This document shows, piece by piece, positions 1 to 60,240 of a stretch of DNA of 64,000 nucleotides (positions are counted from its first letter, which is position 1; each line of letters starts with the position of its first letter). A program made the position numbers and the translations under genes. Under the pieces are notes generated by a model. It ran no database searches. It was not told where the DNA came from and worked only from the letters and a program-made list of their open reading frames with translations. The DNA comes from Stutzerimonas stutzeri (GTDB lineage: Bacteria; Pseudomonadota; Gammaproteobacteria; Enterobacterales; Pasteurellaceae): assembly GCA_901420285.1 (NCBI GenBank), contig CABDVE010000001.1:744001-808000 (forward strand), written 5' to 3'.

Positions 1-1305
1 CTATCATCACAACTAAATGATAGTTTTTCAGAATATATAAATGAACTTAAAAAACTAGGATACCCTAGTGAGAGCTATGACCCAAATATAATATTAGAAA
101 GTTTTATTGATAACTCTGAAATACTTAAACAAAATACAAAAATAAAATTTGGAGATAAATCATCGCCACTTCCTGAGGAATTAAATGGTTTAGGATATAG
201 AAATTTAATTTATATTTTCTTTAAATTATTATCATTTAAAGCTGAATGGCAAAAAGCAGGAAAATCTATAGGCGATGATGGTGAAACACCCGCTCCTATT
301 CATTTAGTTTTAATTGAGGAACCTGAAGCACATTTACACTCTCAGGTTCAACAAGTTTTTGTCAAAAAAGCTTATGAGATACTAACAAAAGATTTACAAG
401 ATGATAATCCTTTTACCACTCAAATGGTTATTAGTACTCACTCAAGTTATATTATTCATGAAGTTGGTTTTGAAAACCTACATTATTTTAAAAGATGTAA
501 GGTGAAAGAGAATTTTCATACAGAAGCAATCGATCTATCTAATGTTTTTGAAAAAGACAATGAAAAAAATAAAAAGTTTGTTTCTAGATATTTAAGAACA
601 ATTCACTGTGATTTATTCTTTGCTAATGCGATTATCCTTGTTGAGGGTTCTGCTGAAAGAATGCTGTTACCATACTTTATTCGTCATCATTTTCAACAAC
701 TAGAATCAAGTTACATATCTTTACTTGAAGTAAATGGGGCTCATGCTCACCGCTTTAAGCCTCTAATTGAAGCACTTGGAGTTCCTTGTTTAGTATTAAC
801 TGATCTAGATTCAACCTATCAAAAAAGAAAAGTTATTCCTTTACTAAATCAAGGACAAGAATCCAACTGTGATAATTTAACTAAATGGTTGAATTTAGCC
901 AATAGGACACTTGACATAGTATTAGATATTCCTGATACCGAGAAAGTTGTCAAAAATACATTTATTTCTTATCAGAAAAAAATAAAAATTCAGTGGCATA
1001 ATCAGGAAGAGATTGTTATCCCTTACACTTTTGAAGATTCTATTGTATTTTCTAATCTTCAGATTTTTAAAGACACAGAAATAATGAAAGGCACTACAGG
1101 AATGTTAAAGAAGATGCATGAAGCCACACTAGAATCAAATTTAAATAAATGCTGTCAAAAAGTTTTTGAAGCTCTTGATGGGGAAAAAGCAAAAATGGCA
1201 TTAGACATCTTGTATGAATTTGAACCACAAGGAAATGAGTTATTTAGTCCGCCTAATTACATTCAGGATGGGCTAAAATGGTTAAGTGGACAATTAGGTC
1301 TATAA
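1..1305 (+). CDS. GajA-like OLD-family ATPase/TOPRIM nuclease, 5' end outside window
   Basis: The reading frame is open from base 1, so the gene starts upstream; the internal ATG at 424 is not the true start. Visible are a Walker B-like LVLIEEPEAHLHSQ (nt 304-345), an ISTHSS H-loop (nt 430-447), then a TOPRIM domain with the glutamate in LVEGSAERM (near nt 643) and the acidic pair in LTDLDS (near nt 802). This order, ABC-type ATPase then TOPRIM, is that of OLD-family nucleases. The UvrD-like helicase 15 bp downstream is the class 2 OLD/Gabija arrangement, so a GajA-like role in cutting phage or foreign DNA is inferred. Codon use is very AT-rich (AAA, AAT, ATA), unlike the genes after 3500, which suggests transfer. 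The N-terminal Walker A is not in the window. Confidence 0.8.
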   Translation, partial: LSSQLNDSFSEYINELKKLGYPSESYDPNIILESFIDNSEILKQNTKIKFGDKSSPLPEELNGLGYRNLIYIFFKLLSFKAEWQKAGKSIGDDGETPAPIHLVLIEEPEAHLHSQVQQVFVKKAYEILTKDLQDDNPFTTQMVISTHSSYIIHEVGFENLHYFKRCKVKENFHTEAIDLSNVFEKDNEKNKKFVSRYLRTIHCDLFFANAIILVEGSAERMLLPYFIRHHFQQLESSYISLLEVNGAHAHRFKPLIEALGVPCLVLTDLDSTYQKRKVIPLLNQGQESNCDNLTKWLNLANRTLDIVLDIPDTEKVVKNTFISYQKKIKIQWHNQEEIVIPYTFEDSIVFSNLQIFKDTEIMKGTTGMLKKMHEATLESNLNKCCQKVFEALDGEKAKMALDILYEFEPQGNELFSPPNYIQDGLKWLSGQLGL

Positions 1306-1320
1306 GAAAGGGCATTAGTT

Positions 1321-3120
1321 ATGAGTAATGTAGATGAAGAGATTTATGCTTATGTAACAGATACCCCTCCTAAAAGTTTTTTACTTTTTGCTGGTGCTGG
1401 ATCTGGTAAAACCAGAACATTAGTAAATATTTTACAAAAAATTAAAAATAATCATAAAGAAAAGTTACTAAAAAAGAATCAAAAAGTAGCAGTAATTACT
1501 TTTACAAATGCTGCATGTGAAGAGATAAAGCATAGATTGCAATATGATTCAACATTTCATGTGTCAACTATTCATAGTTTTGCTTGGGAGTTAATTAAAC
1601 CATTTACAAAAGATATAAAGAGTTTTTTACAAGAAAAGCTAAATAATGATATTTCAATTTTGAAAATTAAACTAAGTAAAGCGATAACCGAAAAAGCAAT
1701 AGAAAATTATAATAGAGATATAAGTAAAAAAGAAAATAGATTAAATTCTCTAGAGGAAATAAATTCCTTTATTTATAGCCCAATAGAAATACTTATTGGG
1801 AAGGGAACCTTAAACCATTCAGAGGTTATTGAAATTTTTACTAAATTTTTGTCTAAATTTAAATTAATGAAAAATATATTAACTACGGAATTTCCTATCT
1901 TATTTATTGACGAATGCCAAGATACTCAAAGGGAACTTCTTAAATCATTAATACAAACTCAGCAAAATAATAAAGAGACATTTTGTTTAGGTCTATTTGG
2001 CGATTCGATGCAACAAATCTATTCTAGTGGCTATTCTGAACTTATAAATAATCTACCAGAAGATTGGAAAAAACCATGCAAGATAAATAATTACAGATGC
2101 CCATCTAGGATCGTTAACTTAATCAATAAAATTAATAAAACTTACAACTCTAATAATTATATAGAACAAATCGCTCAAAAAAATCAAACTGGAATAGTAA
2201 GAGTATTTATTCTCAATAAGAACATTGAAAATAAGTTATCCCAAGAACAAATTATTAGAGAAAAGATGTCCGTAACATGCCAAGATTTAGAATGGAAAGA
2301 TATAAAAAATGTCAAAACTTTAGTTTTAGAACATGCAATGGCTGCAAATAGATCTGGATTTGGAAACTTTTTTTTACCTTTATCTCAAAATAGTATTATT
2401 AGAGATAATCTTCTACAAAATACTGGAATTAACATTCAATTTTTATTAGAACAGGTCTTGCCATTGGTAAATAGTATAAAAAACAATAATAATTTTGAAA
2501 CAATGAGAATATTAGAAAAATATTCCCCTTTAATGAATAATGAAATAATATCTAATAATTTTAAAGATCTTAAGACGAACATTAAAGATTTAAATATAAA
2601 TGAAGATCTTTCTATAGAAATGATTTTATCCGATATTAACCTCAAAAGATTATTAGAAATTCCTGATGATATAAAAAATGGTTTGAATTATGATTCTAAA
2701 GATAACGATTCTAAGGATAACGATTTGTTATGGAATAAAGCACTAAAAGCAAGTCTAAAAGAGCTTATGCAATATAACTTGTACATTAAAGGAAAATTAG
2801 GTTTTGATACTCATCAAGGTGTTAAAGGTCTTGAGTTCAATAGAGTTATGGCTATTTTGGATGATGAAGAATCTAATGGTTTCTTATTTAAATATAATAA
2901 ATTATTAGGAACAGAATCCCTAAGCGATACAGATATAAAAAATATAGAATCAGGAAAAGATAATGTTATATCTCGCACAGCAAGATTATTTTACGTTATT
3001 TGTAGTAGAGCTGAAGAATCATTAGCTATTGTTGTATATAGTAATAAACCATCTGAACTAAAAAATAATCTGACTTATTCAGAATTTTTTTCAGAAGATG
3101 AAATCGAAATATTTAATTAA
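1321..3120 (+). CDS. UvrD/Rep-like superfamily 1 helicase, GajB-like
   Basis: The 599-residue protein has the SF1 helicase motifs in order: Walker A GAGSGKT (residues 25-31), motif Ia ITFTNAACEEIK, motif Ic STIHSFAW, Walker B FIDECQDTQ (D197, E198), motif III GDSMQQIY (from about 227), motif IV NNYRCPSRI, motif V THQGVKGLEFNRV and motif VI FYVICSRAEE (about 552-565). The start has an AAGAAAGG ribosome site 10 bp upstream and follows the OLD-type nuclease by 15 bp, so the two are probably co-transcribed. In Gabija systems the helicase partner senses DNA ends or nucleotide depletion and works with GajA; that role is inferred here. It is about 100 residues longer than the best-known GajB, with a long AT-rich low-complexity section in the middle (about residues 290-490). 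Base composition is foreign to the surroundings. Confidence 0.8.
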   Translation: MSNVDEEIYAYVTDTPPKSFLLFAGAGSGKTRTLVNILQKIKNNHKEKLLKKNQKVAVITFTNAACEEIKHRLQYDSTFHVSTIHSFAWELIKPFTKDIKSFLQEKLNNDISILKIKLSKAITEKAIENYNRDISKKENRLNSLEEINSFIYSPIEILIGKGTLNHSEVIEIFTKFLSKFKLMKNILTTEFPILFIDECQDTQRELLKSLIQTQQNNKETFCLGLFGDSMQQIYSSGYSELINNLPEDWKKPCKINNYRCPSRIVNLINKINKTYNSNNYIEQIAQKNQTGIVRVFILNKNIENKLSQEQIIREKMSVTCQDLEWKDIKNVKTLVLEHAMAANRSGFGNFFLPLSQNSIIRDNLLQNTGINIQFLLEQVLPLVNSIKNNNNFETMRILEKYSPLMNNEIISNNFKDLKTNIKDLNINEDLSIEMILSDINLKRLLEIPDDIKNGLNYDSKDNDSKDNDLLWNKALKASLKELMQYNLYIKGKLGFDTHQGVKGLEFNRVMAILDDEESNGFLFKYNKLLGTESLSDTDIKNIESGKDNVISRTARLFYVICSRAEESLAIVVYSNKPSELKNNLTYSEFFSEDEIEIFN

Positions 3121-3504
3121 CATCTCTACCTAAATTAGGCATAAGTTTATATATATCTAATAATTTATCTGCTACCCTCCTAATGGCGCAAGCGTCCTCG
3201 CTTGTGCCTCCCATCTAAAAGTGCGGTCAAAAAATACAAAGAATTTTGAATATGGTTCTGCCGACGGTTATGGGTAAAATTCTCAATGTTTTTATTAAGC
3301 AGCACCTGCGTGGACGCTGGCGCTATCTTGCTTTATTTGCACCTATCTGTTGACGCCCATTTCCCTGTATGTGCCTAATTTCACTAAAAAACCCTCAAAA
3401 ACTCACCGCACTTTATTTACTTTCTACGGCACGCGTTAGGAAACGCGCGACAGCATAAGCGTTAAACACAAAAAGTTCGATTAAAATTTCCAACGTTTTC
3501 GGAT
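3121..3504. other. 384-bp intergenic stretch at the edge of the accessory block
   Basis: No gene is visible. It holds a hairpin at 3185-3208 (10-bp arms, one G-U pair, loop TCCT), which could terminate the helicase transcript although it has no clear T-run. It also holds a canonical USS, AAGTGCGGTCAAAA, near 3220 and an inverted USS (ACCGCACTT) near 3406. Base composition changes here from very AT-rich to the level of the core genome. Confidence 0.6.
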
Positions 3505-4707
3505 TTATTGCAACAACCAATCCACCACATAAATCACTTCAATCCCATCAATCTCTGTTTGTTCGTAATATTTTCCCGTAATTAAGATCTTTTTATAGTT
3601 ATCTTTAATGTGCAAAAGATTATCGGTTTCGTGGGTATTTTCAGGGATTTCAAAGGCGACTTGCACATATAAAATCTCATCGGCTTTTCGGGCGATAAAA
3701 TCAATTTCTTGGCTGTCGAGTTTACCGACATCTACGGTATAACCTCGTCTAAGCAATTCAATAAAAACGATATTTTCTAAGCGATTGGCATAATTCGCCC
3801 CTTTTTTGCCGATAGCGTGTCGTCTTAAACCGTTATCCACAATAAAATATTTCGCATTGGTTTTTAAATAGCCTTTTCCGCGAATATCATATTGTTTTGC
3901 TTTATAAAAAAGAAAGGCATTTTCTAACAAATCAAGATATTTGCTGATGGTGTGATTTGAAGTGGGGACACGTTCGGACGTGAGCGTGTTGCTAATTTTG
4001 CTCGGATTCACCAACTGCCCTACGTTATCCGCCAAAAAGAGAATCACGCTTTTAAGAATATGGGTATCTTTCACCCCGGCTCGATGAGCAATGTCATTCA
4101 GCACAATGGAATCAAAAATGCCGGATAAAATCGTTTCTTTTAAAGGTTCATCAGCCATCACAACGCTGGGAAAACCGCCATATTTTTCGTATTCCGAATA
4201 GAGTTTATCCACCAATCTTGACTGGCTATCCACATTTTTGGAGCGTAAAAATTCTTTAAAAGAAAGCGGATAAATTTTGATTTCCACATATCGACCGCTT
4301 AACAGCGTCGCAAGCTCGCCGGAAAGCAAGTTGGCATTGGAACCTGTAATCATGATATCGGTGTTAAAACTCACGCGAAGCGCATTGACGGTTTTTTGCC
4401 AACCTTCCACAAACTGAATTTCATCAATCAGAAAGTAGGTTTTCTCTTGAGAGGAAGGCATTTTTTCTTGAATAAGCTGTTGGAAGTCTTGAGCATCTTT
4501 CACCCATTGATATTCAAAAGATTCAAAATTGAGATAAAGAATGTTTTCGGAAGCAATGCCCTGCTGCTGCAGATAATCACGGTATTGCATAAGTAACACC
4601 GATTTACCGGAACGACGAACACCAGAGATCACTTTGATAAAATCGGTATCTTTAAATTGAATCAGTTGCTGTAAATAATTTTCACGAGAGATCATGGCTT
4701 TACTCAT
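3505..4707 (-). CDS. AAA ATPase with DUF4143 (AAA_14 family)
   Basis: The 400-residue protein has Walker A GVRRSGKS (residues 29-36), Walker B YFLIDEIQF (D95, E96), the family motif ITGSNANLLSGELATLLSGR and a C-terminal DUF4143 region with a nuclease-like pattern (LDSQEIDFIARKADEILYVQV). Such proteins are common, variably present, single-gene ATPases in bacteria and archaea whose function is largely unknown. Either the ATG at 4707 or an in-frame ATG at 4695 could be the start; neither has a strong ribosome site. The gene stands alone and its start overlaps the first of three phased palindromes, which suggests local regulation. It lies next to the Gabija-like pair but points the opposite way; whether it belongs to the same accessory block is uncertain, since its base composition is closer to core genes. 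Confidence 0.8.
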   Translation of the reverse strand: MSKAMISRENYLQQLIQFKDTDFIKVISGVRRSGKSVLLMQYRDYLQQQGIASENILYLNFESFEYQWVKDAQDFQQLIQEKMPSSQEKTYFLIDEIQFVEGWQKTVNALRVSFNTDIMITGSNANLLSGELATLLSGRYVEIKIYPLSFKEFLRSKNVDSQSRLVDKLYSEYEKYGGFPSVVMADEPLKETILSGIFDSIVLNDIAHRAGVKDTHILKSVILFLADNVGQLVNPSKISNTLTSERVPTSNHTISKYLDLLENAFLFYKAKQYDIRGKGYLKTNAKYFIVDNGLRRHAIGKKGANYANRLENIVFIELLRRGYTVDVGKLDSQEIDFIARKADEILYVQVAFEIPENTHETDNLLHIKDNYKKILITGKYYEQTEIDGIEVIYVVDWLLQ

Positions 4708-4801
4708 TGGAAATGAATTTCATATTTTTGAAAATTATACATAAATTGGAAGTTAATTTCCAATTTATGTAAAAGAAACAAAAATTAGAATTTAATTTCT
4801 A
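4707..4801. promoter_or_regulatory. Three palindromic sites with exact 39-bp spacing
   Basis: Related palindromes start at 4707 (TTGGAAATGAATTTC), 4746 (TTGGAAGTTAATTTCC) and 4785 (TTAGAATTTAATTTC), each 39 bp from the next. The middle one sits in a perfect 13-bp inverted repeat (arms 4739-4751 and 4758-4770). The first overlaps the start codon of the DUF4143 ATPase gene, so this is a plausible multi-site operator over its promoter. The binding protein is unknown. Confidence 0.5.
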
Positions 4802-4910
4802 TTATTTAAGCATGGCGCCTATTTTCCCTGCTTCTGTCTGAATACAAGAAAAACACGTCAAAATCCTTCCACGATGGCGCACGCTTCCCGGCGTAAATGT
4901 TTGATCATGT

Positions 4911-5693
4911 TCAAAAATTACTCTCAACGCTCGCGGCACAAAATTTGAAGTGATTTATTGATCCTATCTTATCAACTCCAAAAATTTCTTTTTTTATCCG
5001 ATCAAACTTTACTTTCACGCCAAACGCTTTCGCCAGATTTTCCGCGTTTAACACGGTTTGCGTTTCCCCATTAGCAATGATTTTGCCGTTATGCAACAAA
5101 ATCACTTCATCACAGAATTTGTAGGCAAGCGATAAATGATGAATTGCTACTGCAACCGTATGTTTGGGTGTGAGGGATTTTAGTTGTTCCATAATATCGA
5201 TTTGATAATAAGGATCGAGCGCGGCGATGGGCTCGTCGGCAAGCAGTAAAGGTGCGCCTTTAATGCAACAACGTGCGAGCTGCACGCGGGATTTTTCACC
5301 GCCGGAAAGTTGGCGGAAAGGTTTTTTCAGTAAGTGCGAGACGGAAAACGTATCTGAAATCGACTGCACTTTTTCCTGTTCTTTGGCTTTGTTGAGTGGA
5401 TTCGGCAGGCCCAGTGCGATAACGTCATACACGGATAAATCCCAATGAATTTCGATATTTTGCGCAAGGTAAGCTAACTGCCGGCTTTTTTGTGAGGCGC
5501 TCATGGTGCTTAATTTGTCGTGGTTAAACCAAATTTCGCCATCGGCAATAGGCAGAATCCCGGCGATAGTTTTCAATAGCGTAGATTTTCCCGTGCCGTT
5601 GGCGCCCATAATGCCGACCAATTTTCCTTGCGGAATGTGGCAGTTAATATTTTTTAAGCCGTAAGACTGGGTGAGGTTTTCGATTCTAATCAT
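4911..5693 (-). CDS. ABC transporter ATPase, FecE/BtuD type
   Basis: The 260-residue ATPase has Walker A GANGTGKST (30-38), signature LSGGEKSR (129-136), Walker B LLLADEP (149-155) and an H-loop AIHHLS. The start MIRIENL at 5693 is chosen because it begins the conserved fold and lies 2 bp after the permease stop; a longer frame to 5813 would overlap the permease gene. It powers import across the inner membrane of an iron-siderophore, heme or cobalamin-type substrate with the FecCD permease upstream. No periplasmic binding protein or outer-membrane receptor gene adjoins, so the substrate cannot be told. Confidence 0.88.
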   Translation of the reverse strand: MIRIENLTQSYGLKNINCHIPQGKLVGIMGANGTGKSTLLKTIAGILPIADGEIWFNHDKLSTMSASQKSRQLAYLAQNIEIHWDLSVYDVIALGLPNPLNKAKEQEKVQSISDTFSVSHLLKKPFRQLSGGEKSRVQLARCCIKGAPLLLADEPIAALDPYYQIDIMEQLKSLTPKHTVAVAIHHLSLAYKFCDEVILLHNGKIIANGETQTVLNAENLAKAFGVKVKFDRIKKEIFGVDKIGSINHFKFCAASVESNF

Positions 5694-5695
5694 AA

Positions 5696-6673
5696 TTATC
5701 CGGCTAATTTTCGTTGTTCTGTTAATAAAATCCAAATTAAGCATGGAGCGCCGATAATTGCTGTCAGCGTGCCGATGTAAATGTGGGAGAAAAGGGGAAC
5801 GTGTTGCACGCAAAGATCGGCGATTAAGAGCAACAAGGCGCCGAGCAATGCACTGGTCAAATAAAGCTGGGACGGGCGTTTTTTCAGTAAAATTCGAGCG
5901 ACGTGCGGAGCAATTAAGCCGATAAACCCGATAGTGCCTGTTTGTGGAATGGTTGCTCCAACCAACAAGGCGACGCCGAAAGTTATGATGAAAAAGCTAC
6001 GTTGCGGATCGATCCCCATGGTGCCGGCGGTTTCTTCGCCAAAGGTGAGCAAATCTATGTAACGATGCTGTCGATACAAACAAGCCATACCAACCAATGC
6101 AATGGGTAAGGAAATTAACAGGGTATCCGATTGAGCCCACACCAATGAGCCTTGTAGCCAGCGGTAAAGTTCCGCCAATGCCCATGGGCTTTCGGCGTTA
6201 GAAAGCAATAAGGCAATTACTGCACCAAGCAACATGTTTACCGCCAAACCGCTTAAAATCATCATGGTCGTGCCGTGATTTTTAGCAATGGCGTAAACCA
6301 ATAAAAAGCTTGCTAAGGCCCCGGCAACACCACCAAATAGCAATATAGTAAAAGGCACAGAAAAATAATACAGAATCAGCACACTGGCGGCCGTCGCCCC
6401 CGCACTACTGCCGAGCAACCCCGGACTGGCGAGCGGATTTTGGAAAATCCCCTGCATGGCATTGCCCGCCAATGCAAGACAAGTTCCGGTCAGCACTGCC
6501 AAGCCGATACGCGGCACGCGAATTTCCCATAATACGAGAGAACGCATATCCGTCAGCACGCCCTCGGCATTTTTGAGATGGGCGAAGTCATCGAGTTGGT
6601 GATAAAGGGCGAGAGCAGAGATCAGCGCGAGGGCTGAAAAAAGGATTAAATTTAGAGTTTTTTGTGTTTCCAT
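5696..6673 (-). CDS. FecCD-family ABC transporter permease
   Basis: The 325-residue protein is strongly hydrophobic with about 9-10 membrane segments. Family motifs include LAGNAMQGIFQNPLASPGLLG (in two overlapping parts, about residues 68-88), the G-rich segment VALLVGATIPQTGTIGFIGL and the ATPase-coupling stretch APHVARIL. It forms the membrane channel for uptake of ferric-siderophore, heme or vitamin B12 type substrates with the ATPase 2 bp downstream. The ATG at 6673 gives the usual length. The absence of a binding-protein gene on either side is odd for this family; it may lie elsewhere. Confidence 0.9.
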   Translation of the reverse strand: METQKTLNLILFSALALISALALYHQLDDFAHLKNAEGVLTDMRSLVLWEIRVPRIGLAVLTGTCLALAGNAMQGIFQNPLASPGLLGSSAGATAASVLILYYFSVPFTILLFGGVAGALASFLLVYAIAKNHGTTMMILSGLAVNMLLGAVIALLLSNAESPWALAELYRWLQGSLVWAQSDTLLISLPIALVGMACLYRQHRYIDLLTFGEETAGTMGIDPQRSFFIITFGVALLVGATIPQTGTIGFIGLIAPHVARILLKKRPSQLYLTSALLGALLLLIADLCVQHVPLFSHIYIGTLTAIIGAPCLIWILLTEQRKLAG

Positions 6674-7265
6674 GGTGATTACATTATGTGCGGAAGCGTG
6701 GCAAACAACGATTATTTAGCAACATTAAGAATACTTTAAAAGGCATAAGCAATGGCGCCGACCCTTGCAATAATTGAGAGAGACTAATGGTTTTCGCGTC
6801 ATCATCTTATCATTAACGGATTCTCTGCGTTTTTTTCACTTTTGGCAGCACCGCATTGAACGCTCAAAATAGCACCGCATTGAACGCTTAAAATAGCACC
6901 ACATTGAACTTTCAAAATAGCACCGCATTGAACGCTTAAAGTAACACCGCATTGAACGCTTAAAGTAGCACCGCATTGAACGCTTAAAGTAGCACCGCAT
7001 TGAACGCTTAAAGTAGCACCGCATTGAACGCTTAAAATAGCACCGCATTGAACTCTCAAAACAGCACCGCATTGAATGCTTAAAATAGCACCGTATTGAA
7101 CGCTTAAAATAGCACCACATTGAACGCTTAAAACGGCACCGCATTGAACTCTCAAAATAGCACCGCATTGAATGCTCAAAATAACAGCGCATTGAGATTC
7201 GCATTGGCAAAAAACGAATTAATTTTGCTCAATAGTCACGTATTCGGTTCGGAACAACGAAAAAA
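6674..7265. other. 592-bp intergenic stretch dominated by a tandem array
   Basis: It lies between the start of the FecCD-type gene and the stop of tyrR. The only strong structure is the 24-bp array at 6847-7206. Because 24 is a multiple of 3 and the unit has few stop codons, open frames of about 125 codons run through it on the minus strand in two registers, giving 8-residue periodic peptides. They lack ribosome sites and look spurious. Confidence 0.8.
6847..7206. repeat. 24-bp tandem array, 15 units, AGCACCGCATTGAA core
   Basis: Units begin at 6847, 6871, 6895 and every 24 bp to 7183 without any length change; the last is degenerate. Each unit is the core AGCACCGCATTGAA followed by about 10 variable bases, commonly CGCTTAAAAT, CGCTCAAAAT or CTCTCAAAAC. 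The complement of the core, TTCAATGCGGTGCT, shares TGCGGT with the Haemophilus USS. No spacers of CRISPR size are present. The same core recurs singly throughout the window. Confidence 0.95.
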
Positions 7266-8219
7266 TTACTTTCCTATTCCATATTGGCGTAATTTATTGG
7301 CAATTGCCGTGTGCGATACGCCGAGGCGTTGCGCGAGTTTTCGCGTGCTGGGAAATTCGCGATAAAACGCACGTAAGATTTGAGCTTCATAGCGCCCGAT
7401 AATCTCATCTAAGGTTTGCTTTTCAAATTCTTCAATGGAAACGAGGGCATTTGACGGCAAACGAAGATTAAGGTTTTCGATGGTCAAGCGGTTATCCTTC
7501 GCCAAGGAACAGGCGCGATACAAGGTGTTATAAAGTTCGCGCACGTTACCTTGCCAATTATATTGCTGCAAATATACGAGGAACTGTCGATCAAAAGTTG
7601 GTTTCTGAATGTTAAGGGATTCGCTGATTTCCTGCAGAAAACCTTCCGTTAAAGGTTCAATATCTGCAATCCGTTCGCGCAACGGCGGCACGTTGAGGGT
7701 CAGCACGTTTAAACGATGAAACAAATCCGCGCGCACTTTGCCCTGTTCAACCAATTGATTTAATGGCATTTGCGCAGTGCAAATTACGCGCACGTTAGCA
7801 TGATGTTCTTTTTCTTCACCAACTCGGCGAAACGAACCGTCCGTTAAAAAACGCAGTAGTTTCGCCTGTAAGCTGAGGGAAAATTCCGCAATGCCGTCTA
7901 ATAACACCGTGCCGCCGTCGGCATATTCGAAAAAGCCGATGGTTTCGTCTTCTCCCACTTTACGGCCGAACATTTCGCTTTCTGCATCTTCGTCAGGTAA
8001 GCCGGCACAATTCACTGCAATAAATTTATGCTCGCGGCGCAAACTTTGGTAATGGCAGGCTTTGGCTAATAAATCTTTGCCTGTACCGGTTTCACCTTGA
8101 ATCAATAACGGTACATCAAACATGGCGAAACGTTGGGCATTTTCCACCGTATTTTTCATGCTTTCGCTGTGAGTCACAAAGCAAGAAAAAGGATGTTGCG
8201 GATCAAATTTAAAGGTCAT
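7266..8219 (-). CDS. tyrR: TyrR-type transcriptional regulator, short form
   Basis: The 317-residue protein is an AAA+ bacterial enhancer-binding-type domain (Walker A GETGTGKD, 42-49; ADGGTVLLDGIAEF Walker B region; arginine-rich LPPLRERIADIEPL) followed by a C-terminal helix-turn-helix (STRKLAQRLGVSHTAIANKL). It begins directly before the AAA+ domain, so the N-terminal ACT and PAS domains of E. coli TyrR are missing. The sigma-54 contact loop GAFTGA is also missing (GFFEYADGG instead), consistent with a sigma-70 regulator. The short form is known from Haemophilus. TyrR controls aromatic amino acid synthesis and uptake; an aromatic permease gene lies at 52178. Confidence 0.85.
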   Translation of the reverse strand: MTFKFDPQHPFSCFVTHSESMKNTVENAQRFAMFDVPLLIQGETGTGKDLLAKACHYQSLRREHKFIAVNCAGLPDEDAESEMFGRKVGEDETIGFFEYADGGTVLLDGIAEFSLSLQAKLLRFLTDGSFRRVGEEKEHHANVRVICTAQMPLNQLVEQGKVRADLFHRLNVLTLNVPPLRERIADIEPLTEGFLQEISESLNIQKPTFDRQFLVYLQQYNWQGNVRELYNTLYRACSLAKDNRLTIENLNLRLPSNALVSIEEFEKQTLDEIIGRYEAQILRAFYREFPSTRKLAQRLGVSHTAIANKLRQYGIGK

Positions 8220-8403
8220 AAAAGCCTACTTACTGCGAGTAAAAACTGTCGCTATGATAGTGGGTTTATCCTTTTCCGTAAAGATTTATTTACAGAAATG
8301 TGCGCTAGAAAGGAGGGGGGGAATTGAACAATTGCAGTGAGGCGGATTTCAATGCGGTGCTGATTTGAATTTGCACTATAGGTGAATATTTTAGATAAAT
8401 TAA

Positions 8404-8439
8404 AAGGACTAAGCGCTATAAAAATAATGCTTAGTCCTT
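8404..8439 (-). terminator. Terminator of the rpsF-rplI operon
   Basis: Perfect 11-bp arms (8404-8414 and 8429-8439) with a 14-nt loop, followed on the minus strand by TTTTAATTT. It lies 57 bp past the rplI stop. The rest of 8220-8495 holds one dispersed core motif near 8349 and a poly-G run near 8315; no gene is visible. Confidence 0.8.
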
Positions 8440-8495
8440 ACATTCAATTGAGTTTTCAGAAATCAGAACAATCTCAGTTTCTGCTTAACAATCGA

Positions 8496-8945
8496 TTACT
8501 CTGCAACAACAACGATGTTTAATGTTGCGAACACTTCACCATGAAGTTGGAAACGAACGTCGTGGTCACCGAGAGTACGGATTGGACCATTTGGTAAACG
8601 CACTTCACTTTTCGCAATTTCAATGCCTGCTGCGCTTACAGCATCAGCAACATCGCGAGTTGTGATCGCGCCGAATAAACGGCCTTCGTCACCGGCTTTA
8701 GAAGCAATAGTAACGGCTCCCAATGCGGTAATTTGCGCTGCACGGGCTTGTGCCGCGGCAAGACTTGCTGCTGCTGCCGCTTCTAATTCAGCACGGCGCG
8801 CTTCAAAGTGTTCGATATTAGCTTTGGTCGCCATAACCGCTTTTCCTTGTGGGATTAAGAAGTTACGTGCAAAACCTGATTTAACATTAACTTGATCACC
8901 AACATTACCTAGGTGAACAATTTTATCTAAAAGAATTACTTGCAT
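8496..8945 (-). CDS. rplI: 50S ribosomal protein L9
   Basis: The 149-residue protein has the L9 N-terminal signature [19 protein letters not shown] with the [16 protein letters not shown]-binding segment, a long alanine-rich central helix (about 45-80) and the C-terminal domain. It binds 23S rRNA and helps reading-frame maintenance. It is the last gene of the rpsF-priB-rpsR-rplI operon, 15 bp after rpsR, with the ribosome site GGAAGGA upstream. Length is normal. Confidence 0.98.
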
Positions 8946-8960
8946 TTGTCCTTCCTCTTC

Positions 8961-9515
<555 letters not shown>

Positions 9516-9529
<14 letters not shown>

Positions 9530-9893
9530 CCTCAAAATCGTTGGTTTCAACTTCAGTTGAAGCGCGACGTTCGTCTTTCGCTTTAACCATTGGGGACGCT
9601 TCTGTTACGGCGTGCTTAGTATGAATAACAAGACTGCGTAATACAGCATCGTTATAACGGAAAGTCGTTTCTAGCTCGTCGATGACTTGTTGAGGCGCTT
9701 CTACATTCATAAGCACGTAGTGTGCTTTGTGTAATTTGTTAATTGGGTAGGCTAATTGACGGCGACCCCAATCTTCTAGGCGATGAACTTGACCACCGGC
9801 TTCTTTTACAGAACCTGTGTAACGTTCGATCATACCTGGTACTTGCTCGCTTTGGTCCGGATGAACCATAAACACGATTTCGTAGTGACGCAT
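9516..9893 (-). CDS. rpsF: 30S ribosomal protein S6
   Basis: The 125-residue protein begins [18 protein letters not shown] and carries [20 protein letters not shown], the S6 core. Its acidic C-terminal tail ([10 protein letters not shown]) resembles the E. coli tail that receives added glutamates. It is the first gene of its operon, with AAGGAGCAGTA as ribosome site. A two-stem hairpin in the leader (9917-9952) may be the autoregulatory site for the S6:S18 complex. Confidence 0.98.
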
Positions 9894-9916
9894 TACTGCT
9901 CCTTACGGGTTAATCA

Positions 9917-9952
9917 GCCTTTGACGTAGATTAGCCACCAATCTGCAAAGGC
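9917..9952 (-). promoter_or_regulatory. Candidate S6:S18-responsive leader of rpsF
   Basis: On the minus strand a 7-bp outer stem GCCTTTG/CAAAGGC (9952-9946 with 9923-9917) encloses an asymmetric internal loop (C opposite ACGT) and a 5-bp inner stem AGATT/AATCT with loop GGTGGCT. It ends 23 nt before the rpsF start. This resembles known rpsF leaders that mimic the 16S rRNA site and let S6:S18 repress translation; assignment is by position and shape only. Confidence 0.5.
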
Positions 9953-10042
9953 AAGGAACGAAAATTCAATGTGGCTAAGGGCGCGGATTATACCGAAATT
10001 TCTGTTTTCCGCAACCGATTTATGTGATGTTCAGGCAAAAAG

Positions 10043-10066
10043 AAAGCCGATAAAGTTATCGGCTTT
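10043..10066 (-). terminator. Terminator after infA
   Basis: AAAGCCGATAA and its exact complement (10043-10053, 10056-10066) form a tight hairpin just past the infA stop, followed on the minus strand by TCTTTTTG. Confidence 0.8.
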
Positions 10067-10089
10067 TAACTTGAATTTAACGACGATGA

Positions 10090-10509
<420 letters not shown>

Positions 10510-10511
10510 CT

Positions 10512-11372
10512 ATGAACTCAAAAAAGCATTTAGGCCATACGGCGCGCAAGCGCTTCGGGCAAAATTTTTTGCATGATAATCATGTTATTCAAAATATCGT
10601 GGCGACGATTTATCCGCAAAAAGGTCAATTTTTAGTGGAAATCGGCCCCGGTTTGGGGGCATTAACCGAGCCTGTCGGCGAGCAAGTTGAGCATTTAACC
10701 GTTGTTGAACTTGACCGCGATCTTGCTGAACGTTTACGTCATCATCCTTTTTTACATCAAAAATTGACGGTGATTGAAACTGACGCCATGCAATTTGATT
10801 TTGGCGCGCTTTATGCCGAGCAAACGGCCGAGCCGAAACAAAAATTGCGCGTGTTTGGTAACTTGCCGTACAACATTTCCACGCCGTTGATGTTCCATTT
10901 ATTCAAATATCACGACGTGATTCAAGACATGCACTTTATGTTGCAAAAAGAAGTGGTAAAACGCCTTTGCGCCGCACCGAACAGTAAAGCTTACGGGCGT
11001 TTAACCGTTATGGCGCAATATTTCTGCCAAGTGATGCCGGTGCTTGAAGTGCCGCCGAGCGCCTTTAAACCAGCGCCGAAAGTGGATTCCGCTGTGGTTC
11101 GCTTAATTCCGCATCAAACCCTGCCTCATCCGGTTAAGGATTTATATTGGCTTAATCGGGTTTGTTCGCAAGCCTTTAATCAACGCCGCAAAACCTTGCG
11201 CAACGCGCTTTCTAGCTTATTTTCTCCGGAAAATTTGACCGCACTTGAGATTGATTTGAACGCGCGTGCGGAAAATCTTTCCATCGCCGATTATGCCCGC
11301 TTAGCGAATTGGCTGGCGGATAATCCGCCGGCGGAGGTGCTGAAGGATGAAATTGTGGATTCGGAAGAATAA
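10512..11372 (+). CDS. rsmA: 16S rRNA (adenine-1518/1519-N6) dimethyltransferase
   Basis: The 286-residue SAM-dependent enzyme dimethylates two adenines near the 3' end of 16S rRNA during 30S maturation. Motifs are the N-terminal [12 protein letters not shown], the SAM loop [13 protein letters not shown] and the catalytic NLPYNIST. The start [17 protein letters not shown] is fixed by the promoter just upstream. apaH follows after 13 bp, the same pair as in E. coli and Haemophilus. Confidence 0.97.
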
Positions 11373-11385
11373 AGCGCGGTCAAAA

Positions 11386-12210
11386 ATGGCAACCTATTTA
11401 GTCGGTGATTTACAGGGCTGTTTTGATGAATTACAGCTTTTATTGGAACGCGTTCGATTCAACCCGGCGCAAGATAAACTTTATCTCGTCGGCGATCTCA
11501 TTGCGCGCGGCGATAAATCCTTAGATTGTTTGCGTTTGGTAAAATCCCTCGGCGGCGCGGCACAAACTGTCTTGGGGAATCACGATCTTCATCTGATTTC
11601 GACCGCACTCGGCATTAAAAAAATCAAACCGCGCGATCGGGTGGACGCGATTTTCAGTGCGCCGGATTTTGAAGAATTGATTGATTGGTTGCGTCATCAG
11701 CCGTTGCTTGTTCACAATGAAGAATTGGGCTTCTTGATGGCGCACGCGGGCATTTCGCCGGATTGGGATTTAGAAACGGCAAAAGCCTGCGCGAAGGAAG
11801 TAGAAAAGGTCTTACAAAACGGTGATTTTTATGCGCTGATTTCTCAAATGTACGACAACTTCCCCGACCGATGGTCGCCTGAGTTACAAGGCATGGATCG
11901 CTTACGTTACATTATCAACGTGTTCACCCGAATGCGGTTCTGTTATCAAGATCACCGATTGGATTTCGCTTGTAAAGTCCCGCCGAAAGAAGCGCCGCCC
12001 GAACTCACGCCTTGGTTCGAGTTAAACAATCCGTTGTATCGACAAATCCCGATTGTGTTCGGTCATTGGGCGAGTTTAGTGGATGAAAAAATGCCGCCGA
12101 ATATTTATGCGCTCGATACCGGCTGTGTCTGGAATAATCGCCTGACCATGCTACGTTGGGAAGATAAACAAATTTTCAGCCAAAGTGCGGTCAAAAATTA
12201 CGAAATTTAG
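11386..12210 (+). CDS. apaH: Bis(5'-nucleosyl)-tetraphosphatase, symmetrical
   Basis: The 274-residue metallophosphoesterase hydrolyses Ap4A to ADP and removes Np4 RNA caps. Motifs are VGDLQGC near the N-terminus, GDLIARG, LGNHD and FGHWASL. The start [12 protein letters not shown] at 11386 is taken rather than an upstream ATG inside rsmA. A USS-like AAAGCGCGGTCAAAA overlaps the start, and a canonical USS, AAGTGCGGTCAAAA, is used as coding sequence at the C-terminus (near 12182). Confidence 0.96.
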
Positions 12211-19240: not shown

Positions 19241-19325
19241 ATGTAGCTGTAGCGCAAGGCTGAAATGACCTTGCAAAATAGCACCGCATTGGAGCGGCTT
19301 CCAATGCGGTGCTATTTTGCTACAT
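19241..19325 (+). repeat. Palindromic ~80-bp element, copy A, with hairpin
   Basis: An outer ATGTAGC/GCTACAT inverted pair (19241-19247, 19319-19325) encloses the conserved flank CAAGGCTGAAATGACC and a perfect 20-bp inverted repeat (19273-19292 and 19301-19320) around AGCGGCTT. The hairpin may terminate the phosphoesterase transcript. Related copies are at 12241 (reversed) and 60161. Confidence 0.85.
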
Positions 19326-22642: not shown

Positions 22643-23329
22643 TTAAATTAAATATTTCGCATTAAGTACAATGAACGATAAACACAGAAAAGGCGCAAAG
22701 GGTAAAAATTCCTTGGTTTTTCTGAGTGGAAGAGCGAATAGAATTCCTGTTACACAAGCAATCAGCAAAAATACCGGAAGTTGTTCTAATGGCAAGTAGC
22801 TACCGATAGCGAGTGCGAGCCAGTAGTCTCCGCGACCGAAGGCTTCTTGTTTATAATGCCATTTGGCGAACCAATAAACGGTGTAAAAAAGCAGGAAAAA
22901 ACCGGCTGCACTTTGTAGGCTTTGTTCTAACATCAAATCTGAAAACGATTGCGCTGCGCCGAATAATCCGAGGGCAAGCAATCCTAAACAGGGCGTTGGT
23001 GATATGAGTCGATAGCGCCAATCGAGATAAGCGATTGCCCATAGCAAAGCCAATGCGGTGCTAAACCATAAGGCAAATGACGGGCTTGGCGCGAGTGCGG
23101 CAAATGCGCTAAAAATAAATCCGACAACGAAAAAATATTGCAAAACGTGACCGCATTTTTGTGTTTGTAGGTTTGCTAAATGCTTTTGGAAAGGCGGAGG
23201 ATTGTTAGGGAAGAGTTCGACATAAGCAGCATAAACATCCGTTTGTAATCGTTCGATAAAGCTCGAAATATAAAGATATAATGCGACGCCTAAGGTTCCG
23301 CCGAGTAAAAATGTTGCGAAGCCTATCAT
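22643..23329 (-). CDS. pilD: Prepilin peptidase, short form
   Basis: The 228-residue membrane protein has about six helices and the two catalytic aspartates of the family, in YLDWRYRLISPTP and FGRGDYWLALAIGSY. It would cleave the PilA leader. The N-terminal cysteine-rich zinc region of larger PilD proteins is absent, as in the Haemophilus protein. It overlaps pilC by 4 bp (ATGA), so translation is coupled. Confidence 0.9.
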   Translation of the reverse strand: MIGFATFLLGGTLGVALYLYISSFIERLQTDVYAAYVELFPNNPPPFQKHLANLQTQKCGHVLQYFFVVGFIFSAFAALAPSPSFALWFSTALALLWAIAYLDWRYRLISPTPCLGLLALGLFGAAQSFSDLMLEQSLQSAAGFFLLFYTVYWFAKWHYKQEAFGRGDYWLALAIGSYLPLEQLPVFLLIACVTGILFALPLRKTKEFLPFAPFLCLSFIVLNAKYLI

Positions 23330-24546
23330 TGCACTACCGATCCCATATTAAAAATCGGTAAGTACATACCCATCATAATTATGCCGATTAAACCGCCGAT
23401 GATCACCATCATTAAAGGTTCAAGCATTTGAGAAAGCAGATCAATTTGGTGATTGAGTTTTTCTTGATAATTTTCTGCAATATGTTGCAACATCAACGCA
23501 AGCTTGCCGCTCTTTTCACCGATTTGCAGCATTTGTTGCGCTTCCATCGGGAACAGACGGCTACTGATGCTATCAGAAAATGCATAGCCTTGTGAAACCC
23601 ATTGCAAAATTGATCTGACCTCGCCGTCTAGCACCGCATCCGAGGTAAGCGGAGACTTAATTTGCCAACTTTGGGCACGCGGTAGAAAACTATTGAGCGC
23701 TTGATTTAACGGTACGCCGGCTTGCAGCATAATGTGTAAATTTTGGCTGAAATTAACCAAGCGGGAAAGCTGTTGAATTTTACCGAAAATCGGCGTAAGG
23801 GCGATAATACGCGCTTTTTGTTGTTTAAAATGTGGTGATTGCTTAAATTTTAAGTGGTAGAAAAGTCCGAGAAAAAGGCTTAGTAACAAAAGAATATATA
23901 ATTCTTCTCTTAAAAAATTTGACATCGCGAGTAAAACTCGGGTTAAAGTCGGTAGTTCACTATTGTTGCTTTGGTACATTTCGGCAAATTGCGGCACAAT
24001 AAAAAGCAACAGCATCAACGTGAGTGACAGAGAAATGCCAAGTACCATTGATGGATAGAGCATAATTTTTTGCAATTTGCGCTGTAACGCCAAAGAGCGA
24101 TTACGATGTGACGCTATTTTCCCGCATACTAATGCCAATTTGCCGGTCATTTCGCCCACCTGAATTAATTGAATTTCTTGTCGAGTGAGGAATTTCCCTT
24201 GCCGTTCAATACTTTGTGAAAAGGATAAACCGGATTCAATGCTCTGTAAAAGTTGCTCGACCCATTCGTTTAATGCGAGTTGGGTGCAATTCTGCTGCAA
24301 TATTTGCAGGCTATTTTTAAGCGAAATGGCAGATTGTAATAATATGGCAAGTTGGTTTAATAATGCGCTGATTTCCGCATTTTTTGGCTTGTTGTTAAAT
24401 TGCCAATTTTGTTGCAGTTTGATGTTTGTCAACCCGCGATTCATTAGTTGAAATTCTGCCGCACGGATGGAATCGGCAATAATAGAACCTTTTTGCAGTT
24501 GTTCTAAGGTGTTCCGTGCGCGATAGTAAAAAAGTTTTTTTGCCAT
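23326..24546 (-). CDS. pilC: Type IV pilus inner-membrane platform protein PilC
   Basis: The 406-residue GspF/PilC protein has two homologous cytoplasmic domains separated by membrane helices (around MVLGISLSLTLMLLLFIVP and YILLLLSLFLGLFYHLK) and a C-terminal helix (VVIIGGLIGIIMMGMYLPIF). Typical motifs are LIQVGEMTGKLALVC and LQIGEKSGKLALML. The start MAKKLFYYRARN at 24546 is chosen by homology and a GGAAACCG ribosome site; the frame upstream overlaps pilB. It serves pilus assembly and DNA uptake. Confidence 0.94.
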   Translation of the reverse strand: MAKKLFYYRARNTLEQLQKGSIIADSIRAAEFQLMNRGLTNIKLQQNWQFNNKPKNAEISALLNQLAILLQSAISLKNSLQILQQNCTQLALNEWVEQLLQSIESGLSFSQSIERQGKFLTRQEIQLIQVGEMTGKLALVCGKIASHRNRSLALQRKLQKIMLYPSMVLGISLSLTLMLLLFIVPQFAEMYQSNNSELPTLTRVLLAMSNFLREELYILLLLSLFLGLFYHLKFKQSPHFKQQKARIIALTPIFGKIQQLSRLVNFSQNLHIMLQAGVPLNQALNSFLPRAQSWQIKSPLTSDAVLDGEVRSILQWVSQGYAFSDSISSRLFPMEAQQMLQIGEKSGKLALMLQHIAENYQEKLNHQIDLLSQMLEPLMMVIIGGLIGIIMMGMYLPIFNMGSVVQ

Positions 24547-24560
24547 ATCGGTTTCCTTAA

Positions 24561-25958
24561 TTAGGCCGAGCCTAAAACGCGATGGATTTCCGCTTCGTCC
24601 GTTACGCCTTGTTTTACTTTTTCCAATCCGCTTTGACGAAGATTGTCGAAATCCGTTTGATAACCGTTTTCTTGCCAATGTAAGAATTGGTAAACACCAA
24701 TGCGTCCGTGATAACCTTGATGACAATCACAAGCCTGGATGAAGGGGACATCTGAAGATTGTCTGCACTTTCGGCAACGCTTGCGTACTAGTCGCTGGGC
24801 GATGACGAGTAGTAAGCTGCTTTCGATCTCGTGTTGCTTAATGCCGAGTTGTTGTAAACGAGAAATCGCGGAAATCGCATCATTGGTATGAAGGGTGGAA
24901 AGTACTAGATGTCCGGTTTGTGCAGCGCGTAACGCCATGGCGGCGCTTTCTTCATCACGAATTTCGCCAAGCATAATGATATCGGGATCTTGACGCAAAA
25001 AAGAACGTAAAAGTCGGCTAAAATCCAGTCCAATTTGTGGATTGACTTGGCTTTGAATAATGCCGTCAAGTTCAATTTCTATCGGATCCTCCGCCGTCAT
25101 AATGTGTTTATCGGGCGTATTAAGCCATTGAAGTGCGGTGTAAAGTGAAATACTTTTTCCGCTGCCGGTCGGTCCGGTGACTAAAATTAATCCCTGCGGT
25201 TGGCTGAGTGCCTGTTGGAACGAAGCTTGTTGGGCTTCCGTCATACCCAATTCGGCAAAGCTGAGTTCGACCGGTTTGTTTTGTTGGGCGCGCAGTACCA
25301 CTTTTTCACCCCAATGGGTTGGCAAAGTGGAAAGACGAAAATCAAGAATATCGGAAAATGTGGTTTTAAACTGAAAACGGCCGTCTTGTGGTAGGCGGGT
25401 TTCACTGATGTCGAGTTTAGCAAGTAATTTTAAGCGAGAGATTAAACGATTCGCCAGATTTTTACTGACCGGAGTTTGTGGTTGCAATACTCCGTCGATT
25501 CGGAACCGCACTTGAAATTGATGTTGTAAGGTTTCCAAATGGATATCGGACGCGTTCTTTTGCAGAGCAGATTCAAAGATACGATTGAGCAATTGAATGA
25601 CCGGTTCATCATCCAACGAATCGGTCGATTCCTCTTCTTGCGAGGCGTAAAAGTTAACCTGTTCTTCCTCTTGTGAAGCTTGTGGTGCTAGTTGTTGCAA
25701 AAGCGCTTTAAGTTGCACGCTGTCGAGCAATACCGGTTCTACTAATTTGCCGCAAATAAAGGCGATGGTTTCGCAGGCGGAGAGATTATTCAGAGAATCG
25801 ACCGCCAGCCAGATTCGATGCTCTTCTTCTTTTAAGGGGAGGGTAAAATAGCGTAAAAACAGCGCACTTTGTTGTTGGTTTCGAGCCCAAAGTTCAGGCG
25901 AAATCTCGAAGATTTCGCCGTTTTGTGCGGTAACCGTTGTTAAATAATAAGTTGTCAT
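24561..25958 (-). CDS. pilB: Type IV pilus assembly ATPase PilB
   Basis: The 465-residue secretion ATPase has Walker A GPTGSGKS (262-269), Asp/His boxes, Walker B-type [25 protein letters not shown] and a cysteine motif [15 protein letters not shown]. It powers pilus extension. It is shorter than pseudomonad PilB, with most of the N-terminal domain reduced. It overlaps pilA by 4 bp and precedes pilC by 14 bp. A USS-like AAGTGCGGTG lies inside near 25131. Confidence 0.94.
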
Positions 25959-26392
25959 TTAGAACAGAATCCGGCCGGGAAGAGAGATTTATCACCGGTA
26001 CAGCTGGCCGCCCAAGTTATGCCCTTACTTTTGTCACCAGTGGCTGTGAGCGTGTATTGAATGTCTTTCAATGTGCCGTCACCAACCACAGTAATTGCAC
26101 CGGCGTTAGTACTGATACTTTTTATATAACCTTTTGCAGTAGTGGTATTGGCCGCCACACCGTTACTTCCGCCGCTACAATTAGTGGTGGCGCCAGTGCC
26201 GTAAATGCACAGCTCAACATCTGCTTTATAAGGTGCGGAAGCTTGCAACAATTCGGACATCGCCGCTTTTTGGGTGTAATTTTGATAAGAGGGAATGGCA
26301 ATAGTTGCCAAAATGGCGATAATCGCGATGACAATCATTAATTCAATTAGAGTAAAACCCTTTTTTAATACGTGTGAAGAAATAAATTTCAT
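25955..26392 (-). CDS. pilA: Type IV pilin PilA
   Basis: The 145-residue prepilin has a short basic leader ending in KKG, cleavage before [17 protein letters not shown], glutamate at +5 and a long hydrophobic helix. The C-terminal part has cysteines for a disulphide ([13 protein letters not shown]). The start [12 protein letters not shown] at 26392 has AAAAGGAAAATCT before it and gives the proper leader. First gene of pilABCD; a competence operator lies upstream at 26485. Confidence 0.95.
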
Positions 26393-26484
26393 AGATTTTC
26401 CTTTTATTGGTACAAGTTTTGCCAAAGGTGGCGCAACGATTGTGAAAAAGGAAGAAATATCCGTAAAACCGATCGCATTTTTTA

Positions 26485-31623: not shown

Positions 31624-31646
31624 GACGGGCTAGACGTTGGATAACG

Positions 31647-31694
31647 AAAATAGCACCGCATTGAACGAAGAAAATAGCACCGCATTGAACAAAT
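31647..31694 (+). repeat. Two 24-bp units of the dispersed core between rsfS and rlmH
   Basis: AAAATAGCACCGCATTGAAC occurs at 31647 and again at 31671, exactly 24 bp apart, with different filler between. The same unit length is seen in the array at 6847 and at 41164. Confidence 0.85.
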
Positions 31695-40938: not shown

Positions 40939-41291
40939 AAATAACGCCTCTAAAAGTAAGTCAATCAAGATCGAAAGACGCGCTATTTTACAGTAACAAT
41001 ATCAGATGTAAACGTTTGCTTAAGCTTATGAAAATGGGCCAAGGATTTAGATTTTATTGCCGAAATTTCTTAGCTTGGGCTTATCTTATTTTTGCGCTCG
41101 AGTTTTACGATTTCATTCCGACCTGTTTTAAGCTGCGTTAAAAAACCATTCGTTGGCGTGTCAAAACAGCACCGCATTGAGCTACCGAAACAGCACCGCA
41201 TTGAGCTATCGAAATAGCACCGCATTGGAGTTCGCCGATAGCTGGTTTGGAAACGCATTAGGCCATTAAACGGCCGAAAAAAGGTTAATAC
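40939..41291. other. 353-bp intergenic edge before the accessory island
   Basis: It holds the purine permease promoter region and, at 41164-41235, three units of the dispersed core. No gene is supported. Just right of it begins the decayed island. Confidence 0.6.
41164..41235 (+). repeat. Three 24-bp units of the dispersed core
   Basis: AAACAGCACCGCATTGAG or a near variant begins at 41164, 41188 and 41212, exactly 24 bp apart. The filler (CTACCG, CTATCG) differs from that of the array at 6847. Confidence 0.85.
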
Positions 41292-51144: not shown

Positions 51145-51198
51145 CAGCACCGCATTGGAGCCGCTATTGGCGCGCTTTCCGCTTTCAATGCGGTGCTG
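51145..51198. repeat. Dispersed-core hairpin after uvrA
   Basis: CAGCACCGCATTG (51145-51157) and its exact complement (51186-51198) with a 28-nt loop. Confidence 0.8.
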
Positions 51199-60160: not shown

Positions 60161-60240
60161 GTAGCTGTTGCACAAGGCTGAAATGACCTCATAAAACAGC
60201 ACCGCATTGAAGCGGCTTCCAATGCGGTGCTATTTTGTGA
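60161..60240 (+). repeat. Palindromic ~80-bp element, copy B, between menB and menC
   Basis: GTAGCTGTTGCACAAGGCTG and AAATGACC match copy A at 19243, followed by arms AAAACAGCACCGCATTG (60194-60210) and CAATGCGGTGCTATTTT (60221-60237) with one mismatch. Two CRP-like or promoter sites for menC were looked for and not found. It lies inside the menB-menC gene pair and may uncouple them. Confidence 0.85.

Follow-up and report, generated by a model that had tools for sequence, protein, structure and literature searches.

A 24-bp tandem array between two genes

The window analysed here (the whole stretch of 64,000 nucleotides from contig CABDVE010000001.1) carries a tandem array of 24-bp units between a FecCD-family permease gene and a tyrR-like regulator gene, and this array, together with the dispersed motif from which its units are built, is the subject of our analysis. 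The host species belongs to the genus Rodentibacter, and the genome that holds the window (G000) was compared with a second genome of the same species (G129) and with sister species of the genus. The locus comprises the following elements.

5696..6673, minus strand: FecCD-family permease gene, with a start some 170 bp away from the array
6847..7206, minus strand: tandem array of 15 units of 24 bp, each unit being CAATGCGGTGCT followed by RYTTTRARMRTT
7266..8219, minus strand: tyrR-like regulator gene, the 3' neighbour of the array

The array core reads CAATGCGGTGCT on the minus strand. A preliminary description of the locus had reported fifteen 24-bp units without slip, and this regularity was recovered in full: Tandem Repeats Finder delimits a repeat at 6847-7195 (period 24, 14.5 copies, 89% matches, 0% indels), and CACCGCATTGA, allowing up to one mismatch, recurs at 24-bp intervals, with starts running from 6849 to 7185, giving 15 units of which 11 are exact and 4 carry one mismatch, the last unit (7183-7206) being degenerate. 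The same description's near-invariant core and drifting filler are reflected in the off-consensus letters, which number 7/180 in the core and 17/168 in the filler (Fisher p 0.03, for units that are not independent).

The tyrR-like gene, whose matches come from Rodentibacter and Haemophilus species apart from one distant match, served to locate the corresponding site across 15 genomes. Comparison between strains, as the preliminary description had proposed, gave 8 units in G129 against the 15 of G000, the flanks being near-identical, and 13 sister genomes carry no copy of the new 8-mer in the 4-kb locus that surrounds their tyrR gene. With a fixed 24-bp unit and a strain-variable copy number at one site, the array has the makeup of a minisatellite, or variable number tandem repeat (VNTR). 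The preliminary description had set two outcomes against its proposals, absence from close relatives and random variation in unit length; the array is indeed absent from the sister species, whereas its unit length is constant.

Across the window, CACCGCATTGA has 54 matches at up to one mismatch, compared with 1.45 expected and a maximum of 5 in 100 shuffles. Since 39 of these 54 lie outside the array, the question moved to the whole genome. The stretch that precedes the array (positions 1-6846) holds zero motif copies; it contains a helicase-like open frame, recognized by eye, and an AAA_14/DUF4143 gene, and is perhaps partly acquired DNA.

A dispersed motif restricted to one Rodentibacter species

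With the array masked, CAATGCGGT, AATGCGGTG and their neighbours top the 9-mer counts of the window. A k-mer ranking with no preset motif yielded CAATGCGGTG, with the GCGG(T) inner core of an uptake signal sequence (USS; PMC12616744), and this word occurs 1164 times in G000 (1,931,086 bases; 633 forward and 531 reverse), compared with 4 copies (3+1) of a reversed control. The resulting density, one copy per 1.7 kb on both strands, is in keeping with the copy number of a USS. Two USS types are named in the available text of earlier work, the H. influenzae type (Hin) and the A. pleuropneumoniae type (Apl) (PMC12616744, PMC6776037, PMC1626085), and the portion of the TerminatorNet report available to us names one USS consensus (PMC13020248). 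Neither type accounts for the motif. In a G000 sample of 464 kb (the window together with 20 further 20-kb stretches, with expectations from an order-4 Markov model), CAATGCGGTG was found 276 times against 7.7 expected and CAATGCGGT 307 times against 23.1, compared with 80 against 12.6 for the Hin-type AAGTGCGGT and 10 against 11.1 for the unenriched Apl-type ACAAGCGGT. The first base of the core matters, as its alternatives TAATGCGGT (23 vs 22.1), AAATGCGGT (21 vs 29.0) and GAATGCGGT (28 vs 13.6 expected) indicate in the same sample. Hin-type dominance is not seen in G000, either in the sample (80 copies of AAGTGCGGT vs 307 of CAATGCGGT) or genome-wide, where the Hin 10-mer AAGTGCGGTC has 146 copies vs the 1164 of CAATGCGGTG.

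The array core is a genome-wide repeat distinct from the Hin-type USS. A plain Haemophilus USS was ruled out as the identity of the array, the dominant motif being different, and so was the Apl type, whose 10-mer ACAAGCGGTC has 6 copies in G000 and 6 in G129. The preliminary description was accordingly right to call the core uptake-signal-like, given a USS-like motif dispersed in more than 1100 copies, and mistaken in equating it with the Haemophilus USS, which this different motif has largely displaced in the species.

Elsewhere in the searches, no viral contig matched a 19-base form of the motif, and a near-search of plasmids with window positions 7000-12000 returned 7 records, of which the 5 listed match ribosomal-protein or rsmA genes or an unannotated stretch. 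The sole other strongly enriched long words in the 464-kb sample are GTGC repeats (12-mers with counts of 83-85), probably tetranucleotide tracts.

To place the motif within its family, as the preliminary description had also proposed, we compared 140 Pasteurellaceae genomes: two of this species, 13 sister Rodentibacter and 125 others. Enrichment was confined to one species: CAATGCGGTG has 1164 copies in G000 and 1176 in G129, 6-25 in the 13 sisters, and at most 38 in the 125 other genomes. The Hin 10-mer AAGTGCGGTC shows the reverse distribution, with 146 copies in G000 and 129 in G129 vs 704-1057 in the sisters. In aligned DNA, 69-84% of the Hin-USSs of one sister are retained in another (mean nucleotide identity 78-83%), whereas retention falls to 66/413 site-pairs (16%) in G000, at 75.6% identity, and to 23/341 (7%) in G129, at 74.6%, where a single place is counted repeatedly, once per sister. 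On these alignments the apparent loss of Hin sites far exceeds the drop in identity. All 10 of the 10 alignable residual Hin sites in G000 are common to at least one sister, as expected of relics, and the Hin 10-mers that remain in this species are probably relics.

The new sites did not arise chiefly where the old ones had been. Only 3 of 25 alignable new sites fall on a Hin-USS of any sister, and in-place conversion of old sites was ruled out as the main route on that count. Among the new sites that lie well inside alignments, 15 of 19 are ungapped in at least one sister, where the nearest ungapped sister differs from the new 10-mer by 1 to 6 bases; arrays excepted, they follow the USS pattern of substitution rather than insertion. 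Nearly all new sites aligned with G129 (52/53) are common to both genomes.

The extended consensus is roughly GYTY-CAATGCGGTGCT-R-W-TTT...TTCR. In the sister species, the Hin-USS logo (765 sites, many mutually orthologous) reads AAAGTGCGGTCAATTTTT, and a second T tract occupies +23..+27. The new motif has its first T tract at about +13..+16 and, at the distance where a USS carries its second AT-rich segment, a TTCR box (R being A or G) at +22..+25 that is not AT-only. Among copies without a second core at that place, TTC stands at +22 in 16/110 coding, 12/45 intergenic and 13/46 paired copies, and other offsets from +10 to +42 have counts of 0-9. ANNNGCGGT was proposed as a shared USS core by Redfield et al., as far as the available text goes (PMC1626085), and the new core departs from it in starting with C, A being unenriched at that position. 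We take ANNNGCGGT to be a narrower consensus drawn from the two known types, and see in it no ground to exclude the new motif.

Counting as genes all open frames of at least 100 aa, the 220 non-array copies in the 464-kb sample divide into 124 coding copies, 49 intergenic ones and 47 that belong to inverted pairs. Coding copies favour one reading-frame offset (103/130), and intergenic copies are closer to the consensus than coding ones. Of 23 head-to-head close pairs in the sample, 21 lie outside genes and 21 no more than 150 bp beyond a stop codon, and TTTT follows 13 of the 23 on the side shown (by eye); the motif thus has the USS trait of inverted, terminator-like pairs at the ends of genes. 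The window contains three of them, and a single copy near the array.

8349..8359, plus strand: single dispersed motif copy upstream of the tyrR-like gene
19282..19311, unstranded: inverted motif pair, a terminator-like hairpin past a gene end
51148..51195, unstranded: inverted motif pair past a gene end
60200..60229, unstranded: inverted motif pair past a gene end

These data also bear on a different origin, in which the motif is a dispersed mobile repeat of the repetitive extragenic palindromic (REP) or minisatellite type that spreads by copying and is unrelated to uptake. Such a repeat would fit the commonness of close tandem pairs, the under-representation of copies in coding DNA with intergenic copies nearer the consensus, and the 4 of 19 sites that are ungapped in no sister, yet it is difficult to square with the 15 that are, with 124 of 220 copies being coding and mostly in one frame offset, with the agreement of the GCGGT core and segment spacing with known USSs, or with the way in which the rise of the motif accompanies the loss of Hin-USSs. 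We regard a mobile repeat as very improbable.

Tandem expansion of a putative uptake signal

The leading TTCA of the new motif is followed 24 bp later by TTCR, forming a short direct repeat at the array period, and this spacing may therefore explain the 24-bp period. Tandem pairs (4-34 bp between cores) number 113 in G000, 105 in G129 and 0 in the 13 sisters, and those of the Hin 9-mer 0 to 4 per genome in all 15 genomes. Step classes were counted by eye from 100 of the 113 G000 tandem matches listed: 41 have a 24-bp step, at no fewer than 16 loci with differing fillers, roughly 30 fall within coding-like repeats of 42 bp, and 10 belong to one 12-bp array. Pooling eight 24-bp arrays from seven loci (the window array from both strains; array row L133, at the identical place to L090, and arrays of other periods were left out), off-consensus letters number 12/648 in the core and 60/552 in the filler, a contrast that is overstated because the units share descent and were selected by their core. 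Two further 24-bp tandems lie in the window.

31646..31691, minus strand: two-unit 24-bp tandem of the motif, with two units in G129 too
41164..41228, minus strand: three-unit 24-bp tandem of the motif, the third copy having one mismatch in the 11-mer

Arrays elsewhere in G000 take several forms. A perfect 12-unit, 12-bp array of the bare core CAATGCGGTGCT begins at position 951294 of contig C1 (L162:6295-6438), and motif clusters with 42-bp steps lie at 94446-95811, 1410722-1413167, 1610434-1613803 and 1731300-1733892 of the same contig. By eye, the 42-bp repeat translates to approximately NSTANYANSTALVA, the motif encoding STAL in one frame, and the repeat may resemble the head repeats of YadA-type adhesins. 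Near 313583 (L166:5584-5680), a 4-unit 24-bp array lies inside a 310-aa open frame, CysQ-like by eye, and would add in-frame 8-residue repeats.

Taking the genomic comparisons together, we are fairly confident that the array represents a local tandem expansion of the species' own putative USS, a candidate third dialect for the Pasteurellaceae. We take the dialect as the main finding and the array as a probable by-product of the way in which the motif is built. Of the options raised in the preliminary description, recent expansion of a dispersed element is thus the one that held, the USS-like motif having more than 1100 genome copies and the array differing between strains (15 vs 8 units).

The preliminary description had also suggested an uptake hotspot, a selected array whose many adjacent signals draw in this part of the chromosome. 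The lower variability of core than filler in the eight pooled arrays (12/648 vs 60/552) and the recurrence of 24-bp tandems at 16 or more loci, by eye among the matches listed, are what selection might leave, but the former is inflated by the common ancestry of units that were found by their core, and the copy number of the window array differs between strains, 15 vs 8. In H. influenzae, as described in the accessible part of one study, two USSs within 100 bp of each other gave no detectable gain in uptake (PMC7811141); by analogy, a gain from many units is unlikely. On that two-USS result the suggestion went unsupported, and we rejected a hotspot as the main cause, considering it quite improbable.

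A regulator-binding array serving the adjoining permease or tyrR genes, or a coding repeat, would suit the position of the array upstream of the permease start, a unit length that is a multiple of 3, and two minus-strand frames that stay open through the array. These frames are open because of the 24-bp period, which yields them by itself, and a coding repeat was rejected for this reason; moreover, like arrays occur at 16 loci or more (by eye, among those listed), and none of the 13 sisters has the new 8-mer in its 4-kb tyrR locus. The data can be explained without a separate protein-binding array, and we hold a regulatory or coding role to be extremely unlikely.

Several observations weigh against interpreting the array as an expanded USS of a new dialect. 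A literature search found no uptake experiment for this species, which is represented by two genomes only, and just 19 to 25 new sites could be aligned with sisters, of which 4/19 are ungapped in none and 3/25 fall on a sister Hin site. Identity to the sisters is 75.6% for G000 and 74.6% for G129, lower than among the sisters themselves (78-83%), and this greater distance accounts for part of the loss of Hin sites. Hin-type sites are still about six-fold enriched in the G000 sample (80 vs 12.6), so the uptake machinery might still accept both motifs. Coding DNA is depleted of copies, at 124/220 where 88% of the sample is coding; in H. influenzae, going by the text available, 65% of USSs lie within genes (PMC1626085). 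Finally, steps of 15, 16, 27, 29, 33, 40, 41, 42 and 44 bp also occur among the tandem matches listed, and the TTC box is therefore not the sole route to arrays.

In the mechanism that we propose for the new dialect, the motif would be read by the uptake machinery, and a change in the minor pilins, in ComO and ComP most of all, would have shifted its specificity. Uptake bias and recombination could then have filled the genome with the new motif as old sites decayed. The motif keeps the Hin-type layout, but its core starts differently, GC follows the core, and a TTCR box stands in for the second T tract. One unit would be added by slippage, or by unequal exchange, from the leading TTCA to the TTCR box that follows at 24 bp, and, as the leading TTCA of each unit could double as the second segment of the preceding one, every duplicate would be a complete motif.

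Competence genes and relation to known systems

Full-length open frames were found for all the competence genes covered by our check, namely comNOPQ, pilABCD, comA, B, C, E, F and comEC. Family searches confirmed PilA, the secretin, the ATPase, T2SSF and the prepilin peptidase, and ComN, ComO, ComA and ComC gave matches below curated cut-offs only. The com and pil names rest in part on the gene order of H. influenzae. Four of the genes lie in the window.

22646..25958, minus strand: pilB-pilC-pilD (T2SSE, T2SSF and prepilin peptidase; open frames)
25958..26425, minus strand: pilA (major pilin; open frame)

We ranked 34 genes, each present in G129 and with orthologues in 8 or more sisters, by the sites that are invariant among sisters and changed in both genomes of this species, after dropping two entries from a 36-row ranking (window:4914-5813, which starts too early, and window:22121-22405, which lies over another gene). 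Such changes number 24/132 in comO, 15/90 in comP, 10/91 in comA, 5/47 in comB, 9/95 in comN, 4/46 in comQ, 5/93 in pilA and 4/280 in comE, compared with 302/6256 for all genes but comO pooled. ComO ranks second of the 34, and ComO and ComP head the 13 competence genes; the first place is held by a Cof-type phosphatase with orthologues in 9 sisters only, for which paralogue mixing is possible. ComO is less of an outlier by other measures. Its distance ratio of 2.03 equals that of thymidylate synthase (36 frames; comP 1.72, comN 1.64, tyrR 1.62), and its stem relative to the sister tree is 0.365, compared with 0.729 for the phosphatase, 0.370 for YbeY, 0.293 for comP and 0.228 for comN. The changed sites of ComO lie mainly in residues 90-186 (18/59 vs 6/73 elsewhere, with limits chosen after the changes had been seen). 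An AlphaFold2 model of ComO built from 15 sequences had a mean predicted local distance difference test score (pLDDT) of 48.8, with residues 69-187 below 50, and was too poor for the changed region to be placed on a structure.

ComN has been predicted as the USS receptor from structure modelling and coevolution, according to the available part of that report (PMC12616744), in which in-frame deletion of any one of comNOPQ is also reported to abolish uptake in H. influenzae. In our ranking ComN is only mildly raised (p 0.06), and by our reading 6 of its 9 changes are conservative. The larger number of species-specific changes in ComO and ComP than in ComN is a pointer to the receptor, a lead and not proof; ComO may be fast-evolving for unrelated reasons, the genes lie side by side in one operon, and a few residues suffice to change specificity. 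As a tentative and rather doubtful proposal, one Rodentibacter species may have undergone, on its own branch, a switch of uptake dialect, with a reader that is or includes ComO (PpdB-like, with ComP) and not ComN (PpdA), and with a self-similar motif that multiplies into overlapping complete signals and so hastened replacement of the older dialect.

A dialect switch on one branch within a genus in which 13 sister species keep the old dialect would constitute a natural experiment and give a way to search for the protein that reads the new motif, as proteins changed on the switched branch and not in the sisters become receptor candidates. It suggests that a change of specificity leaves old signals to decay, with new ones appearing for the most part at other places, and it gives a possible reason for the presence of signal arrays in one species only. 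Our literature searches, whose scope left out most subscription papers and all preprints, found no third USS type in titles or abstract openings among the matches listed and no paper that treats Rodentibacter together with an uptake signal sequence; the listed matches to the letters of the motif look, by title, like primer or chance matches.

Other members of the family showed further departures from the two known types. In G085, the single genome of another genus (samples L182 and L183), AACCGCGGTCA has 571 copies (281+290; control 0) and at most 5 in each of the other 139 genomes, and is a possible fourth dialect. G080 (genus g22) has 78 copies of AAGTGCGGTC vs 706-854 in 10 congeners, and its 80-kb sample (L167-L170) holds AAGTGCGGT 11 times (0.9 expected), AATAAAATC 24 times (4.2 expected) and CCCCTCTTT 11 times (0.3 expected). 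Counts of both the Hin (2-25) and Apl (1-6) 10-mers are low in G051-G054 (genus g17), G013 and G097, and no USS-like word was found among the top words in samples of G051, G052, G054, G013 and G097.

Compared with the Hin-type USS of H. influenzae and the sister Rodentibacter, the new motif shares the inner core GCGGT, a T tract one helical turn or so beyond it, a further segment at roughly two turns, a high copy number on both strands and inverted pairs at gene ends. It differs in a core that starts CAAT rather than AAGT and is followed by GC, in a second segment that is TTCR rather than a T tract, in its tandem arrays, and in its restriction to one species among the 140 genomes. With the Apl-type USS of the A. 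pleuropneumoniae clade, as given in the available text, it shares a GCGGT core with downstream segments (PMC1626085), whereas the Apl motif itself is unenriched here.

The array resembles minisatellites and VNTRs in its fixed period and strain-dependent copy number, and departs from them in being seeded by a genome-dispersed motif and in a core less variable than the letters between cores. The nearest parallel for the dialect lies in the DNA uptake sequences (DUS) of the Neisseriaceae, where related species likewise use differing dialects of one short uptake motif; as far as the accessible text shows, motif and family are unrelated to those studied here, and eight DUS dialects stand against two Pasteurellaceae types (PMC12616744).
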